Assembly (NCBI RefSeq): GCF_015864825.1
Contig: NZ_JADYWL010000008.1
Location: 1-64,000, forward strand
Length of the DNA: 64,000 bases
Direction of reading: 5' to 3'
Source: Psychrobacter sp. NZS113
GTDB lineage: Bacteria > Pseudomonadota > Gammaproteobacteria > Pseudomonadales > Moraxellaceae
The notes beneath the pieces are model-generated. The model saw only the letters and a program-made list of their open reading frames with translations. It made no database searches and was not told the DNA's origin. The position numbers and the translations under genes are program-made. The first letter of the stretch is position 1; each line of letters begins with the position of its first letter. Shown piece after piece: positions 37,025-43,988 of the stretch.

Positions 37025-37858
37025 TTATGATGCTGTTTTCAACTGATCAAGTACCGTCTGTATACCATATTCTTCAATCGTTCCAGTGACAAAGTCAGCA
37101 CGTTCTATCAGCGCTGGTTGCGCATCTCCCATGGCTACGGCAAACCCGACCAAATCAAACATCTCTAGGTCATTCATACCATCACCAAATGCCATGCACT
37201 CGCTTGCATCCACTTCATAGTATTTACACACATCTTTAATACCTCGTGCTTTGGATGCTTCTATCGGCAATATATCAGCGCCAATATGATGCCAATACAC
37301 CAGTTTTAAATCGTATTGATCAAAATCAATATCTTGCATTTTGTCTTCTTGATTATTAAAGAAAACAGAACATTGATACACGGTGTTTGATTTATAGTAA
37401 TCAGGGGCGACGATAGAGTTGGGTGTGATGGCATTGAACTCACGTAAACGCTCGTTTTCACCTGACCAAGCAATATGAGTCGCTGAGTCAAACTTATGAA
37501 TAAACTCACCTTTTATGCACAGGTTTGCAATTTTATCCGTTTGTTCTGTGGACAACGGGTAATGGCTGATTCGGCCAGCGTTGTCGAAGCTATATTGTCC
37601 ATTCATACAAATAATAGCATCCAACACATTTGACTCTAGCAAGGCTAAGATGTCATCCGGCAATATTGCTTTAGAGCGCCCTGTTGATATCACTAGCTTG
37701 ATATCAGTCTCAGCAAGCTGCTTCAACGTGGCTTGGTTATGTTCAGCGATAATACCGTTGCGACTGAGTGTATCATCGATATCAAAAAATATGATTTTGG
37801 GCATAGGTATGGTGCTCTGTGCCATAATTTCTGTAGCAGTTTTATCTTCAACAAACAT
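37025..37858 (-). CDS. Cof-type HAD-superfamily phosphatase
   Basis: A 277-aa HAD-IIB hydrolase of the Cof type, which usually dephosphorylates sugar phosphates or cofactors such as PLP or HMP-PP. Motif I is FFDIDDTLS with nucleophile Asp26 and acid Asp28. Motif II is ISTGRS, motif III is the Lys in SKARGIK, and motif IV is GDGMNDLEMF. A C2 cap lies between motifs II and III. I use the ATG at 37858, which has AGGAT just upstream; an ATG eight codons earlier has no ribosome binding site. The substrate is unknown. Confidence 0.88.
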   Translation of the reverse strand: MFVEDKTATEIMAQSTIPMPKIIFFDIDDTLSRNGIIAEHNQATLKQLAETDIKLVISTGRSKAILPDDILALLESNVLDAIICMNGQYSFDNAGRISHYPLSTEQTDKIANLCIKGEFIHKFDSATHIAWSGENERLREFNAITPNSIVAPDYYKSNTVYQCSVFFNNQEDKMQDIDFDQYDLKLVYWHHIGADILPIEASKARGIKDVCKYYEVDASECMAFGDGMNDLEMFDLVGFAVAMGDAQPALIERADFVTGTIEEYGIQTVLDQLKTAS

Positions 37859-38170
37859 GATGATCCTATTATTTTTATTCATTCAGGGGTCAGTGACTTA
37901 AATACTACTATAACCACGTAAAGGAAGACCATAGCTATAAGGTAACGTACCCATAGATATTTTCTCTTGGTAGGCTGAGATGATTCTACCAACTTTAATA
38001 TTATTTCTTTTTAATTCAAATAGTTAACAAAAACCCTAAAATATATGATTAGCTTAATAATGATAATTTATTATAAAGTTATATTTAATCATCACTGTTA
38101 ACGTTTACTTTTAATTAAAGAGTAAGCCCTTCCGTATTCACTGATAACTTAACTGATTAAAGGAATAACG
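37859..38170 (+). promoter_or_regulatory. Divergent spacer upstream of the PEBP-like gene
   Basis: 312 AT-rich bases. AATAATGATAATTTATTAT at 38057-38075 has two perfect NATAAT hexamers of a Fur-box type array, but the third is poor, so Fur control is only a possibility. No other feature was seen. Confidence 0.3.
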
Positions 38171-38677
38171 ATGCAAGTTTTTACACTAAAGAAAGTAGTC
38201 GCCCTAACCGCACTCGCTTTGTCTACCAGTACCTTTGCGATGGATGTCACGTTCAATGATAAAACGTGGGATGCGGATCACATACCTGAAGGTCAGCAGT
38301 GTCTAGATTACGGTGGCAAAAGCCCAGCCACACCGAGTATGACGGTATCAAATATCCCTGAGGGGGCTGATAGTCTGGTATTTGTCTATAACGATGTGAG
38401 CAACAAGCGCATGCAAAAGGGCGGGCATGGGATTGTCAGTTATGCATTGTCAGGTGGCAAAACCAGTGTAGAGGTGCCGCGAGTGTTTGGCCATACTTAT
38501 GAAGTGCCAGTCGGTATAGAGATGGTGGCTGAGTATCGTAGCCGCCAGGGCGATGTCCGAGGAGCGTATAAGCCACCATGCTCAGGTGGTAAGGATCATC
38601 TGTATACGATAGACGTGCAGTCATGGCAGGGCGATATGATGACTGCTGAGACAACGGTTGAGATGGGTCGGTATTAG
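38171..38677 (+). CDS. Secreted PEBP-like (YbhB/YbcL-related) protein
   Basis: A 168-aa exported protein with a signal peptide cleaved after STFA (residue 23). The body resembles the phosphatidylethanolamine-binding fold: PATPSMTVSNIPEGADSLVFVYND, then GGHGIVSYAL, and YKPPCSGGKDHLYTIDVQ, which matches the CR2 GxHxY block. The usual DPDAP anion-site motif is replaced by NDVSN, so ligand binding may differ. AAAGGA lies just before the ATG. It stands alone, followed by a terminator of the repeated AAAAAGCCGTCTATA type. Confidence 0.72.
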   Translation: MQVFTLKKVVALTALALSTSTFAMDVTFNDKTWDADHIPEGQQCLDYGGKSPATPSMTVSNIPEGADSLVFVYNDVSNKRMQKGGHGIVSYALSGGKTSVEVPRVFGHTYEVPVGIEMVAEYRSRQGDVRGAYKPPCSGGKDHLYTIDVQSWQGDMMTAETTVEMGRY

Positions 38678-38699: not shown

Positions 38700-38739
38700 G
38701 TAAAAAGCCGTCTATACAGTGTTTAGGCGGCTTTTTAAT
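38700..38739 (+). terminator. Terminator after the PEBP-like gene (repeat type A)
   Basis: AAAAAGCCGTCTATACA pairs imperfectly with TGTTTAGGCGGCTTTTT. The same left arm recurs at 39665, 40364 and 40931. Confidence 0.85.
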
Positions 38740-39120
38740 GATGGTAAGTTATGTTCCAGATGTCTATAAAAGATGTCTATAAAATTTGCTAGCTTAGTCA
38801 ATAGACAACGCTTTGATTGAGGCTTGCAACATCCGACCGCTGAGTAAGCATAGGTCAACCGTATGATGTAATTAAGGCAGGGCTATAGGAAAATATAGAT
38901 TAGACATTATAATTATTAGAATAATGATATCGCCATGATTGGGACAGTTTTTGTAGTACACTTGTACTCTGATACAAGTTGGTATGTTCTCTCATTAAAA
39001 ATTTCATGTCATAGCTATAAAAATGATAATAGATGTTAACAAACTGGTCAAATTGCAACAATTTCATTGATTATATTTTATAATAAAGTATATCTTAATT
39101 TTTTATAAATGGATTTTCTT
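38740..39120 (+). promoter_or_regulatory. Upstream region of the first BLUF-like gene
   Basis: About 380 bases without a gene. A 7-bp inverted repeat ACTTGTA-N6-TACAAGT lies at 38960-38979. From 39041 to 39120 the sequence is recognisably duplicated at 39746-39835 before the second paralogue (AAACTGGTCAA, then ATTGATTA exactly 25 bases later, then TATAATA). The second block probably holds the promoter. Confidence 0.5.
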
Positions 39121-39600
39121 ATGCATATCACTACAAGTCGACCTTCAGAAAATAGAAAAAGACATGGTGAGCACATTCTTGTCAACATGACATATATCGC
39201 CAAAAATGTCGATCTAGATTCGGGGATTGAGCTGACTCGCGCACTTGAGTATTGGCGCAGATATTTTGAAGAAAATAATATAGTTTCAGCTTTAGTCATT
39301 AGTGAAGATTATTTCGTCCAAAGTTTTCAAGGGACAAGGCCTGCTATCAATACTGCCTTGGAAAAGATACTTGATGAGCATTCAACCATTTTTCCTAATA
39401 TTGTTAATATAGAGGAAATAGAATCGCGTCAATGGAAGGGGTTTTTAGTCAAACATCTAACATCAAGTATTGAAGACGAAGAGTATGCCCTAAAGAGCTT
39501 CTCAGCAGGATCTGACTACAATCCCTATCTAATGAAAAGTACTCAGATTGACAGTTTTTTGAAAGCAGTATTTGAAAATGCTGAGTCTAATAAATTTTAA
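39121..39600 (+). CDS. BLUF-like protein, copy 1 (flavin-site Asn replaced by Phe)
   Basis: A 159-aa protein that I read as a short BLUF domain. BLUF proteins sense blue light through FAD. Tyr25 (MTYIAKN) and Gln67 (DYFVQSFQG) are spaced 42 residues apart, exactly like Tyr21 and Gln63 of AppA. The AppA Asn45 position is Phe49 here (WRRYFEEN), and the AppA Trp104 position is Phe108. This copy may therefore bind flavin poorly or not at all. All three paralogues share a basic 17-residue N-terminal extension and a C-terminal YNPYLMKS block. I start at MHITTS because all three genes are then exactly 159 codons. An in-frame ATG four codons upstream exists in copies 1 and 2 only. Confidence 0.72.
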   Translation: MHITTSRPSENRKRHGEHILVNMTYIAKNVDLDSGIELTRALEYWRRYFEENNIVSALVISEDYFVQSFQGTRPAINTALEKILDEHSTIFPNIVNIEEIESRQWKGFLVKHLTSSIEDEEYALKSFSAGSDYNPYLMKSTQIDSFLKAVFENAESNKF

Positions 39601-39662
39601 ATGAGTAAGATTTATTTCTTAGGTATTTGATTCTTAGAATAATTATTGGTTCTAGCTAGAAT

Positions 39663-39702
39663 AGAAAAGCCGTCTATACGTGTGTGTAGGCGGCTTTTTG
39701 GT
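39663..39702 (+). terminator. Terminator after BLUF-like copy 1 (repeat type A)
   Basis: AAAAGCCGTCTATAC on the left and GTAGGCGGCTTTTT on the right form an imperfect stem ending in T, nearly identical to the one after the PEBP-like gene. Confidence 0.85.
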
Positions 39703-39835
39703 GATTCCTATTTTTGTCGTATCATTTTAAGGTGTAGACGATAAGAAACTGGTCAATTACCAAGAGTTTTATTGATTACACCTTATAATAGAGTGTATAT
39801 TAATTTATATACTTATTATATAAATGGATTTTCTT

Positions 39836-40315
39836 ATGCATATAACGACAAGTCAAAATTCAGAAAATAGAAAAAGACATGGCGAGCATCTTCTGATTAG
39901 CCTAACGTATATCGGTAAAAACATCGAAATGAAAACAGGTATAGAATTAACTCGTGCTCTTGAGCAGTGGCGGAGATACTTTGAGGAGAGTGGGTTAGTT
40001 GCAGCGCTTGTGATCAATGACGGTTACTTTATTCAAAACATTCAAGGCTCAAGACCAGCTGTTAATGCCGCTCTGGCGAAGATAATTGATGAGCACTTCA
40101 AAATCCTCCCTAATGTTGTCAAGGTGGAAGAGATAGAAGCGCTTCGATGGGATGGGTTTGTAACCAAACACCTGACGGAAAGTGTCGAAGATGAGGAATA
40201 TGCCCTAAAGAGCTTCTCAGCAGGTTTTGACTTCAATCCTTATCTAATGAAAAGCAGTCAGATTGAAAGCTTTTTAAAAGCGATATTTGAAGATGCTGAA
40301 GCCAATAAGTTTTAA
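39836..40315 (+). CDS. BLUF-like protein, copy 2 (flavin-site Asn replaced by Phe)
   Basis: A 159-aa tandem paralogue of the genes on either side, collinear without gaps. Tyr25 (LTYIGKN) and Gln67 (GYFIQNIQG) of the BLUF flavin site are kept, while the Asn position is Phe49 (RRYFEESG), as in copy 1. The Trp position is Phe108 in RWDGF. BLUF proteins of this short type, such as BlsA of Acinetobacter, have no fused output domain and act through protein partners. It has its own upstream promoter-like block copied from copy 1. No clear terminator follows, because the repeat downstream has lost its right arm, so copy 3 may be read from the same transcript. Confidence 0.72.
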   Translation: MHITTSQNSENRKRHGEHLLISLTYIGKNIEMKTGIELTRALEQWRRYFEESGLVAALVINDGYFIQNIQGSRPAVNAALAKIIDEHFKILPNVVKVEEIEALRWDGFVTKHLTESVEDEEYALKSFSAGFDFNPYLMKSSQIESFLKAIFEDAEANKF

Positions 40316-40360
40316 ATGAGTAGTATTTGTTTCCTAGAATATTTACTTGTTCTAGCTAGT

Positions 40361-40392
40361 ATTAAAAAGCTGTCTATAAAGTATCTTTTGAT
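40361..40392 (+). repeat. Broken type-A terminator repeat between copies 2 and 3
   Basis: TTAAAAAGCTGTCTATAAAGT matches the left arm of the type-A terminators seen at 38702, 39665 and 40931, but the GGCGGCTTTTT right arm is absent. The spacer between copies 2 and 3 is only 108 bases, against 235 between copies 1 and 2, which fits a deletion of the right arm and the promoter block. Confidence 0.6.
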
Positions 40393-40423
40393 TTAGATAA
40401 TTTTTTTATAAATAAGGTTTCTT

Positions 40424-40903
40424 ATGCATATCACTACCAGCCGACCTTCAGAAAATAGAAAAAGACATGGTGAGCATATTATTCTCAGCCTGACGTATAT
40501 TGGCAAAAATAGTGACAGTAATAATGGAATAGAATTGGCTCGTCTTCTTGAGCAATGGCGAAGAAACAATGAAAAAAGTGGTGTAACCTCAGCGCTTGTC
40601 GTTAATGACAATTACTTCATCCAAAATATCGAAGGTCCAAGACCTCTTATCAATGACATATTAGTAAAGTTGATCAATGAATATTCTTACCTAGGACCTC
40701 ATCTCAGTATGGTTGAAGAAGTAGAAGTACGTAGATGGGATGGGTTTTTATTAAAATATTTAACATCAAGCGTAGAAGACGAAGAATATACCCTAAAAAG
40801 CTTCTCAGCAGGTGCTGACTTTAATCCTTATCTAATGAAAAGCACTCAGATTACAAGCTTCCTGAAAGCGATATTTGAGGATACCGAATCCAATAAGTCT
40901 TAG
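40424..40903 (+). CDS. BLUF-like protein, copy 3 (intact flavin-site residues)
   Basis: A 159-aa BLUF-like protein and the most canonical of the three. Tyr25 (LTYIGKN), Asn49 (WRRNNEKSGVTSAL) and Gln67 (NYFIQNIEGPRP) reproduce the AppA triad Tyr21-Asn45-Gln63 at identical spacing. The position of AppA Trp104 is Phe108. The stretch LLEQWRRNNEKSGVTSALVV reads like the core of characterised BLUF domains. This copy is the likely functional blue-light receptor. AAGG lies six bases before the ATG. The first 35 bases after codon 6 are almost identical to copy 1. A terminator shared with parC follows. Confidence 0.78.
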   Translation: MHITTSRPSENRKRHGEHIILSLTYIGKNSDSNNGIELARLLEQWRRNNEKSGVTSALVVNDNYFIQNIEGPRPLINDILVKLINEYSYLGPHLSMVEEVEVRRWDGFLLKYLTSSVEDEEYTLKSFSAGADFNPYLMKSTQITSFLKAIFEDTESNKS

Positions 40904-40926
40904 ATAAGTTCTATATTCTGATTGGC

Positions 40927-40971
40927 GTAAAAAAGCCGTCTATACATTACATCGTATAGGCGGCTTTTTGA
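40927..40971. terminator. Bidirectional terminator between BLUF-like copy 3 and parC (repeat type A)
   Basis: AAAAAAGCCGTCTATAC pairs with GTATAGGCGGCTTTTT around a short loop. It can serve the convergent parC as well. Confidence 0.88.
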
Positions 40972-41035
40972 TAGGAGTTGTTTAATTTTATCAGCCAGAT
41001 TTTGAACTAGGATTTCCAAAATTTAAATAGTCAAA

Positions 41036-43342
41036 TTAGCCAACTTCAACACTCGTCACATTCTGAAAGCCTCTTGGCAACTGCCCACCACGATTACCAC
41101 GCACACCCGTATAGTTAGCCAAATCATTTGGCTTGAGTGTCACGTGACGCTTACCGGCAGTAATGACAAGGCTATCTTGCTGACTCAGTGGCGTGATAGT
41201 AAGTACTTCTTCGCCGTCCTTTAGCTTGATCAGCTTATTACCTTTACCGCGCGCCTGTTCAGGCAGATCATCGAGGCCAAATATCAGTAAGTATCCTGCA
41301 TTGGTCGTGACGGCGACGTGGTCAGGTGCCACACTTGTATTGCTATTCTCACCTTCGGCATTAACGGTCGCATCTACTGGCGCATCGATACGTGCGACAG
41401 GAAGCAAGCGACTATCAGCCGCTAGGTTAATGATGTTTTTACCCGCTTTTTGATTGCTATCGAGATTGCCAATGGTATTGATAAAGCCATAACCTGCGGA
41501 GCTGGCGAGAATAATGCGTTGATCGTCAGCACCCGTTAGTAGCTGCTCAAAGCTGGCACCTGCTGGCGGTTTTAACACACTGGTCAGCGGATCGCCTTGA
41601 CCACGCGCAGACGCTAAGTTATGCGCATCGATACTATAGCTGCGTCCAGTGCTGTCGAGCACGTAGATTCGCTCATTGGATTTACCGCGGACGTGCGCTT
41701 GATAGCTATCACCTGAGCGGTAACTCATACCGGCAGCATCGACATCATGGCCTTTGGCTGCGCGAATCCAGCCCGCTTTTGATAGGATAGCAGTGACAGG
41801 TTCGCTAGGTACGAGGTCTGACTCTTTTAATGCTTGCGCTTCTTCGCGCTCTGCCAGTGGTGATACGCGCTCATTGCCGTGTTCTTTCATATCGGCTGTC
41901 AGCTCGTCAATCATCAGATTGGTTAGACTGTCTGGATTGTCCAAGTACTCTTGAATAATGGCACGTTCGGCAGCCAGTTCATCTTGCTCGCGGCGCAGCT
42001 CAATCTCTTCTAACTTTGCCAATTGACGCAGACGAATATCCAAAATCGCATTGGCTTGAATGTCAGTCAGGTCATAGTTCTGCATTAACGTCGCTTTTGG
42101 ATCTTCCTCTTCACGAATGATGCGAATGACTTCATCAATATTAAGATAAGCAATTAGTAAACCTGCCAAGATGTGCAAGCGTTTATCGATTTTATCAAGA
42201 CGATATTGCAAGCGGCGTGTGACCACAGAACGGCGACAGACGAGCCATTCTTCCAATATTTCTTTTAGGTTTTTGACCTGCGGCTTACCGTTTAGGCCAA
42301 TCATGTTCATATTGACGCGATAATTGCTCTCAAGCTCAGTACTAGCAAACAGGTGACTCATGACGCGAGCAACATCGACTCGGGTTGATTTTAGCTCAAG
42401 CACGATACGACAGGCATTTTCGTGATCTGACTCATCATGAATATCAGTAATCCAAGGCAGCTTCTTATCGGTCATGAGCTTGGCGATTTGCTCTTGGATT
42501 TTGTTGCCTGATACTTGGTAAGGAAGCGCATCAATGATGACGAGATTCTTTTCTTTAGGATCAACATGGAACGTCGCACGCATTTTATAGCTGCCACGAC
42601 CCGTTTCATACATCGCTTGCAAATCTTTTTTACTGGTAATGATTTCAGCAGGTGTTGGCAGATCAGGTGCTGGTATTGATTGGGTAAGCTGCTTGACCGA
42701 CAGTTCAGGATTTTTAAGTAACCGAATCGCTGCACGTACTACTTCATTGAGATTATGTGGCGGAATGTCTGTTGCCATACCGACCGCGATACCTGTCGTG
42801 CCGTTTAGTAAAATATTAGGTAGGCGGGCAGGTAGGGTAGTTGGCTCTTGCATCGTACCGTCAAAGTTGTCTTGCCAATCGACTGTGCCTTGTCCGAGTT
42901 CTGCTAGCAACGTATTGGCATAAGCGGACATTTTGGCTTCGGTATAACGCATCGCCGCAAAGGATTTAGGATCATCAGGGCTACCCCAGTTACCTTGACC
43001 AGTGATGAGTGGATAGCGATAGCTGAACGGCTGTGCCATTAGAACCATGGCTTCGTAACAAGCACTATCACCATGCGGATGGTATTTACCCAAGACGTCA
43101 CCGACCGTACGTGCCGATTTTTTGGCCTTGGCAGTCGATTTTAGCCCCAGCTCGCTCATGGCGTAGACGATGCGGCGCTGTACAGGTTTTAGACCGTCAG
43201 CGATATTTGGCAGCGCTCGATCCATGATGACGTACATGGCATAGTTGAGATAGGCTTGCTCAGTGAACTCTGCGACTGAGCGAGTATCCATCGGTTCAGT
43301 GGGAATGATTGGGACAATCGTATTATCAATAACATCAGACAT
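41036..43342 (-). CDS. parC: DNA topoisomerase IV subunit A
   Basis: ParC is the DNA-cleaving subunit of topoisomerase IV, which decatenates daughter chromosomes. The 768-aa product has the catalytic Tyr133 in MRYTEAKM and the quinolone-determining region [14 protein letters not shown]. That region has the susceptible-type Ser93 and Glu97 (Ser80 and Glu84 in E. coli). The middle carries coiled-coil segments, and the C-terminal beta-pinwheel begins near residue 500. I start at ATG 43342 ([17 protein letters not shown]). The frame stays open upstream, but that extra part encodes an unrelated hydrophobic stretch. parE is not adjacent. Confidence 0.97.
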
Positions 43343-43988
43343 AAAATAGGATTCACTTATCAGTTTTAATAGGTATAGATAATTGGTGCAAGCGTACAAA
43401 TAGGATAGTGCTATCGTAAAGGAAATTGGCAGAATTAAAAAGGTATAAGTCAGAATAGACGACAGGACGTGACGCGCTTTATTAGGTTTATCTATCACAC
43501 TTTGCTTGATGGCTTTTACAAAACAGGTCAAGCTAGCAACAATTAGTATTGCCCGTCAGTTAAGCAATGATAAGGACGGCACTCGCCGTAACTTTGTGAC
43601 TTTAACAGAATTGGCTAGCGCCCTTGACAGTACAAAGTAATGAACGGGTAACAAACCATAGGACTTCTATGGATGAATGTTCGACAATTGAGTGCTAAAA
43701 ACTCATTGGTTTTTATTATTAAGAATTTGATATAAAAGGTTTTATTTTCCGTCAAGCTTGTTTGCGAACTCAAGCAGCAATCTTTTATATTGAGTAGTTT
43801 GTACAAAGTGTGTATGTTAATAAACAAAGGGCTATTTACCGCTATATTGTTTGCTCAGCACTGTACGATTGCGCCATAGCCTTGCTTACCACCGTAATGG
43901 TCAGCAAAGGCTTGGCATTTCGTATGTTTATCACACTGTGATTAGTATACGCTGACGGTAATGTACTATTACTAGGAGAAAAAAGATT
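43343..43988. other. Divergent spacer between parC and fadD
   Basis: 646 bases. A 43-codon open frame at 43509-43640 has no ribosome binding site and is not called. Promoters for both flanking genes are expected, but no clear box pair stands out. Confidence 0.4.

Follow-up and report, generated by a model that had tools for sequence, protein, structure and literature searches.

Among described BLUF proteins, PixD (Slr1694) and Tll0078 come closest to the Psychrobacter family analysed here, which resembles them in length, in predicted fold and in the photoswitch Tyr and Gln. The differences lie in other residues: the sites that we take to be Ser28, Arg65, Trp91 and Met93 of PixD are changed in all three copies of our locus, and the presumed Asn32 is changed in copies 1 and 2. 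As described in the part of the review PMC5899715 used here, PixD forms a decamer, the exchange of Trp91 to Phe makes its recovery about 50-fold slower, and the Met93Ala variant, functionally locked in the signalling state, still shows the red shift. The same part reports that replacing the residue equivalent to Asn45 of AppA did not abolish BLUF photoactivity.

BlsA of Acinetobacter is likewise a short Moraxellaceae BLUF and carries an aromatic residue, Phe32, at the AppA His44 position. Unlike copies 1 and 2, it has an Asn aligned to Asn45 in the alignment made here and, unlike all the copies, it has Ala29 and Trp92; BlsA keeps light sensing (PMC6695109, cited in part). Since Phe32 corresponds to the His44 site, one residue earlier, it was rejected as a precedent for Phe49 (same part of PMC6695109). 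The axonemal proteins MOT7 and TEX47 share a BLUF-type domain with the family, there within a structural complex; they differ in being eukaryotic, and MOT7 is still proposed as a light sensor, with the flavin not resolved, in the part of PMC10266980 used here. Within the genome under study, the closest other BLUF is a canonical short protein of 176 aa (L154:3734-4264), 37-44% identical to the copies, which shares with the family a related leader ending in RHGEH and an FNPYLM segment. Unlike the copies, it has the canonical residues and a C-terminal KKKxWF tail, and its gene stands in tandem with that of a 146-aa BLUF. An ORF of 215 aa with no Pfam or NCBIfam match precedes these two genes (L154:2991-4754) and may encode a partner of the two canonical proteins.

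Fold and flavin-site residues of three tandem copies

The window, that is, the whole stretch of 64,000 nucleotides that was analysed, contains three head-to-tail ORFs of 159 codons each on the + strand (Table 1). ORF calls and alignment bear out what the initial annotation had read from the letters: the genes are adjacent and align without gaps, the spacings between Tyr25, position 49, Gln67 and position 108 (24, 18 and 41 residues) equal those between AppA positions 21, 45, 63 and 104, and position 49 is Phe in copies 1 and 2 and Asn in copy 3 alone. We take positions 25, 49, 67 and 108 to be Tyr21, Asn45, Gln63 and Trp104 of AppA, numbers that agree with the cited papers; AppA numbering is family numbering minus four, without gaps. 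In the gapless alignment, identity to copy 1 is 69% for copy 2 and 63% for copy 3, and an extra in-frame ATG four codons upstream is present in copies 1 and 2 only.

Table 1. Positions in the window of the three copies, the surrounding signals and the flanking genes
Feature	Position	Strand	Detail
Cof-type HAD hydrolase, upstream-side neighbour	37025..37882	-	
PEBP-like (phosphatidylethanolamine-binding-protein) ORF, frequent neighbour	38171..38677	+	19 bits, below Pfam cut-off 24
Promoter-like box upstream of copy 1, dyad in spacer	39067..39092	+	
Copy 1, BLUF-fold protein, 159 aa	39121..39600	+	Y25 W45 Y48 F49 Q67 F108 V110
Likely terminator behind copy 1, strong hairpin with T run	39664..39699	+	-23.3 kcal/mol, z -7.55
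Same promoter-like box, upstream of copy 2	39772..39797	+	
Copy 2, BLUF-fold protein, 159 aa	39836..40315	+	Y25 W45 Y48 F49 Q67 F108 T110
Stretch between copies 2 and 3, lacking a box and any convincing hairpin	40360..40412	+	z -0.76
Copy 3, BLUF-fold protein, 159 aa	40424..40903	+	Y25 W45 N48 N49 Q67 F108 L110
Likely terminator behind copy 3, strong hairpin with T run	40930..40969	+	-23.4 kcal/mol, z -9.32
parC, downstream-side neighbour	41036..43531	-	

The proposed BLUF identity was supported by profile, by model and by structure search. All three copies exceed the gathering cut-off of 25 bits of the Pfam BLUF profile PF04940, with 29.7, 26.6 and 43.8 bits for copies 1, 2 and 3 (E-values 7e-7, 7e-6 and 3e-11). 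For copies 1 and 3, AlphaFold2 predicted the strand and helix order of a BLUF domain, with C-terminal helices (mean pLDDT 73.6 and 76.7), and the best Foldseek matches of the two models, 2hfo_C (E 8e-10) and 8i98_F (E 4e-9), are PixD/Slr1694 and Tll0078. A chain of 8glv, which we take to be MOT7, was also among the matches of the copy 1 model. When solved BLUFs were searched with sequence only, copy 3 gave E 1.3e-5 and copy 1 just E 0.24; the latter counts against the explanation preferred below. PADLOC gave no match for copies 1-3 at E 0.01, so a defence role found no backing there. The genome of 3.4 Mb holds nine BLUF matches (G000:C38, C1 and the window), and other members of the genus have at most nine; the six besides copies 1-3 score 81-96 bits.

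Eighty BLUFs, hand-picked down the ranking of a Pseudomonadota search with weak matches included, were aligned with the three copies. The photoswitch residues Tyr21 (Y in 76/80) and Gln63 (Q in 78/80) are present in copies 1-3, and most other sites depart from the surveyed proteins. The Ser41 site is A, S, C or G in 80/80 and Trp in every copy; the Asn45 site, which contacts the flavin C4=O, is N in 79 and D in one, against F, F and N in copies 1, 2 and 3. In the same copy order, the His85 site (H in 79/80) reads T, K, Y, the Arg84 site (R in 72/80) S, F, S, and Glu66 (E in 80/80) Q, Q, E. The output pair Trp104/Met106 is not universal in the surveyed set (71 and 72 of 80, three gaps each) and is replaced by F, F, F and V, T, L; the Phe at position 108 had gone unmentioned in the initial annotation. 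Copies 1 and 2 have the two lowest scores among the matches listed in the Pseudomonadota search.

These residues leave the initial annotation half right. Its BLUF identity stood, whereas its view of copy 3 as an intact sensor did not, this copy having Trp at the Ser41 site and lacking Arg84, His85, Trp104 and Met106. Its use of the missing Asn as a mark of light death is likewise doubtful, in view of the photoactive Asn replacement mentioned above (PMC5899715, in part). The cluster models of AppA described in the part of PMC4630285 used here have Ser41 interacting with the flavin, so that a Trp at this position may obstruct the flavin ring; the models of copies 1 and 3 are ligand-free.

Copy sets, selection and likely order of change in Psychrobacter

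A search with a profile of the three copies found relatives within the genus; outside it, matches occurred in only two among 299 genomes drawn from the taxonomic family, at about 1e-16. A search of genome contigs with copy 3 returned 28 loci, all from Psychrobacter, the nearest in P. fozii (97%). Among the searches made here, clear family members occur only in Psychrobacter. Loci were taken from the 54 genomes with cluster-type matches, that of the window included, and rows were counted when they span at least 139 of 159 model positions, shorter pieces being left out. This gave 99 rows from 53 genomes, the 54th (G061) holding fragments only. Position 49 is F in 66 rows, L in four and N in 29, while Tyr25 is present in 99/99 and Gln67 in 98/99. 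Among the open-licence papers listed, as screened by titles and abstract starts, none deals with this family or with a BLUF in which Phe naturally replaces Asn45; the part of PMC3554667 used here mentions one BLUF from P. cryohalolentis.

The full-length sets per genome are F (21 genomes), FFN (13), FN (9), FF (4), LN (3), FNN (2) and L (1). An F or L form is thus present in 53/53 genomes and the N form alone in 0/53; the Phe form is the core of the family. Twenty-two genomes have a single row, one of them at a contig end (G083) and another with broken further copies (G049); in the other 20 (19 F, one L) an intact copy stands alone, with both flanks present and no Asn copy. The canonical 176-aa BLUF was looked for in 26 genomes and found in G000 (99%), G010 (89%) and G033 (65%), with the 146-aa type only in G028 (48%). 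The remaining 22, all family-bearing, showed neither canonical type (G049 and G095 are 84% and 89% complete); the cluster copies rank first among their matches, and next come distant BLUFs with lengths from about 200 aa upwards. Together with the lone F/L copies, this indicates that the family can do without an Asn copy and without its canonical relative. Some BLUF match is present in all 105 genomes of the genus.

The broken copies in G049 and G061 may reflect decay or assembly errors. Partial BLUF-like ORFs of 91-107 aa at the cluster locus (L128:4421-4741, L139:2467-2787, L134:4515-4787) are perhaps relics of further copies.

Selection was estimated as Nei-Gojobori dN/dS over pairs with dS 0.15-1.5. 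For the copy-1, copy-2 and copy-3 types the medians are 0.160, 0.122 and 0.163, computed from 43 rows (776 pairs), 19 rows (107 pairs) and 20/29 N rows (111 pairs), respectively; the canonical 176-aa BLUF gave 0.182 (11 rows, 11 pairs). The family is therefore under purifying selection, at a dN/dS about that of ordinary BLUFs. Recent degeneration or a pseudogene state was rejected, since the window copies have no stops and dN/dS is 0.12-0.16 in the three types; Phe at position 49 is old and selected, not a recent loss.

A long branch separates the family from the canonical 176-aa BLUF in the tree. With columns 48-49 removed, the tree of 114 rows unites 67 of the F/L rows in a single clade (SH-aLRT 99); the remaining three, all L, stand apart from it. 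The free trees need three changes when F, L and N are treated as three states over the 114 rows, and two for F/L versus N over 61 of them; a single F/L clade is not rejected (AU p 0.083), which allows one or two origins of the F/L form. Trp104, Met106 and, at its aligned place, Arg84 occur in 0/99 rows. Five early-branching N49 rows carry an Arg one residue before the Arg84 place and keep A or S at position 45 as well as His89. The other 24 N49 rows have W45, with His89 kept in seven. All 70 F/L rows have both W45 and Y48; His89 is missing from 69 and Gln stands for Glu66 in 66.

This distribution of residues suggests a likely order, in which Trp104/Met106 and Arg84 would have been lost before Trp appeared at the Ser41 site and Asn45 then gave way to Phe or Leu after a Tyr; some deep nodes of the tree are weak, so that the order of these steps is likely, not proven. 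Tyr21 and Gln63 were retained throughout, 98 of 99 rows having the dyad. According to the part of the 2015 review PMC4630285 used here, functional studies on AppA Asn45 were not available, and one Asn replacement in another BLUF is cited in the part of PMC5899715 used here. A selected natural series, running from canonical BLUFs through loss of Trp104/Met106 to Trp at Ser41 and Phe/Leu at Asn45 with Tyr/Gln nearly always kept, would directly test which residues of a BLUF pocket matter, and for what. The family is also a caution against reading every BLUF annotation as a photoreceptor.

Predicted transcription units, similar ends and proposed function

The box upstream of copies 1 and 2 has the pattern TTGATT, an 18-base spacer with a dyad, and TATNTT. 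In the window's genome it occurs twice, before these two copies and nowhere else (control 0). A search of 38 genomes, that of the window among them, gave 19 matches, of which 17 fall at the cluster and the other two, in G016 and G096, outside it; the control gave one, and the cluster-bearing G004, G007 and G104 none. Scored with a matrix trained on the same family rows, the box exceeds every shuffle upstream of 62/66 F rows, 8/29 N rows, 0/4 L rows and 0/15 canonical rows. A consensus scan of the window gave 15 promoter-like sites against 10.4 expected and is by itself no evidence; it included the copy 2 box (9 of 12) but missed the copy 1 box and both terminator-like hairpins. With hairpins after copies 1 and 3 and none after copy 2, copy 1 would form one unit and copies 2 and 3 another, and the latter two look like a single predicted operon.

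Upstream of the lone F copy of G008, G009, G010 and their relatives, the box is altered and its right half different, as would fit the loss of a short segment flanked by two TATCTTAA repeats. Hairpin repeats of the GCCGTCTATA type follow the PEBP-like gene (38700-38740), copy 1 (39664-39702) and copy 3 (40929-40972).

The paralogues are more alike at their ends than in their cores. In six three-copy genomes, codons 1-18 are 76-94% identical between paralogues and codons 79-98 only 42-72%; for copies 1 and 3 of the window, identity over codons 1-18 reaches 94%. Between copy 1 and its orthologue in G048, identity is 81% over codons 1-18 against 87-95% over codons 19-138; for copies 2 and 3, comparison with the orthologues gives 93% each over codons 1-18, with no comparable drop. 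This pattern suggests exchange among copies at the ends for copy 1 only; the end similarity of the others may reflect constraint.

We favour, at a probability of roughly 0.55, the reading that these proteins form a Psychrobacter clade of BLUF fold that has probably lost the standard flavin switch and serves as light-independent, or differently liganded, interaction modules. The normal flavin photoswitch would be gone, the most likely reason being that the proteins hold flavin weakly, if at all, and they would work independently of light as PixD-like modules for protein-protein contacts. The similar ends would serve a common partner or oligomer interface, the distinct cores would give each copy its own fixed state, and one promoter would drive copy 1 by itself, another copies 2 and 3 together. 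No partner of copies 1-3 was found in the analysis. LitR or class II LitR was considered and dismissed, the genome having no LitR-type MerR regulator with a large C-terminal domain and three MerR_1 matches of 134, 135 and 143 aa. We also offer, tentatively, a picture in which Trp45 and Phe/Leu49 would plug the flavin niche, the Tyr/Gln switch would serve another input, and mixed oligomers of up to three copies would work without light; the whole clade would then be a BLUF turned sensor or scaffold, with exchanged ends and protected, different cores.

The strongest argument against proteins that are simply free of flavin is the kept dyad of Tyr25 and Gln67, and the finding that Asn replacement alone leaves a BLUF photoactive (PMC5899715, in part) also argues against the light-independent modules. 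Because of these mutant results and those on PixD Trp91Phe (slow recovery) and Met93Ala (red-shifting), a photoreceptor with a tuned photocycle stays the chief rival, to which we allow a modest chance: copies 1-3 would bind flavin and photoswitch with altered kinetics and output, in keeping with a Tyr21/Gln63 dyad retained in 98/99 rows. It has to accommodate, however, a Trp where all 80 surveyed proteins have A, S, C or G, and the loss of Arg84 and His85 as well. The clade-wide rebuilding of the pocket (W45, Y48, F/L49, F108), with Tyr/Gln kept under purifying selection, would also suit replacement of flavin by another ligand or a redox signal that the Tyr/Gln pair reads; we consider this unlikely, as no ligand or metabolic neighbour points there and the similarity of the HAD gene to a riboflavin phosphatase is far below cut-off. 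Still less probable is the proposal of the initial annotation that copies 1 and 2, light-dead themselves, serve a light-sensing copy 3 as partners or decoys. The similar ends and the PixD decamer (PMC5899715, in part) speak for it and, since copies 2 and 3 look co-transcribed, mixed oligomers are possible in the window; but copy 3 itself deviates at Ser41, Arg84, His85, Trp104 and Met106, and the proposal fails as a general case, 20/53 genomes having one intact F/L copy by itself, with no Asn copy beside it.

Chromosomal interval of the cluster

The cluster lies between the HAD hydrolase gene and parC in the 44 of 56 stretches where both were found. Eleven of the other 12 end at a contig end, and L136 has no parC match in its 3 kb; parC is not always adjacent, its start being 1-3 kb away in some genomes. 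The HAD hydrolase of the window scores 75 bits against a riboflavin-metabolism phosphatase model, far below the 220-bit cut-off.

Some 1.5 kb beyond parC was searched in 20 hand-picked Psychrobacter genomes that lack the cluster (L273-L292), and a BLUF copy was present there in 0/20. The HAD-parC interval looks variable: several of these genomes have unrelated ORFs, which encode a TIR protein (L276), an Mrr-type endonuclease (L288), a SEC-C protein (L278), an NYN/OST-HTH protein (L279), an IS200-like transposase (L283) and a photolyase-related protein (L285).
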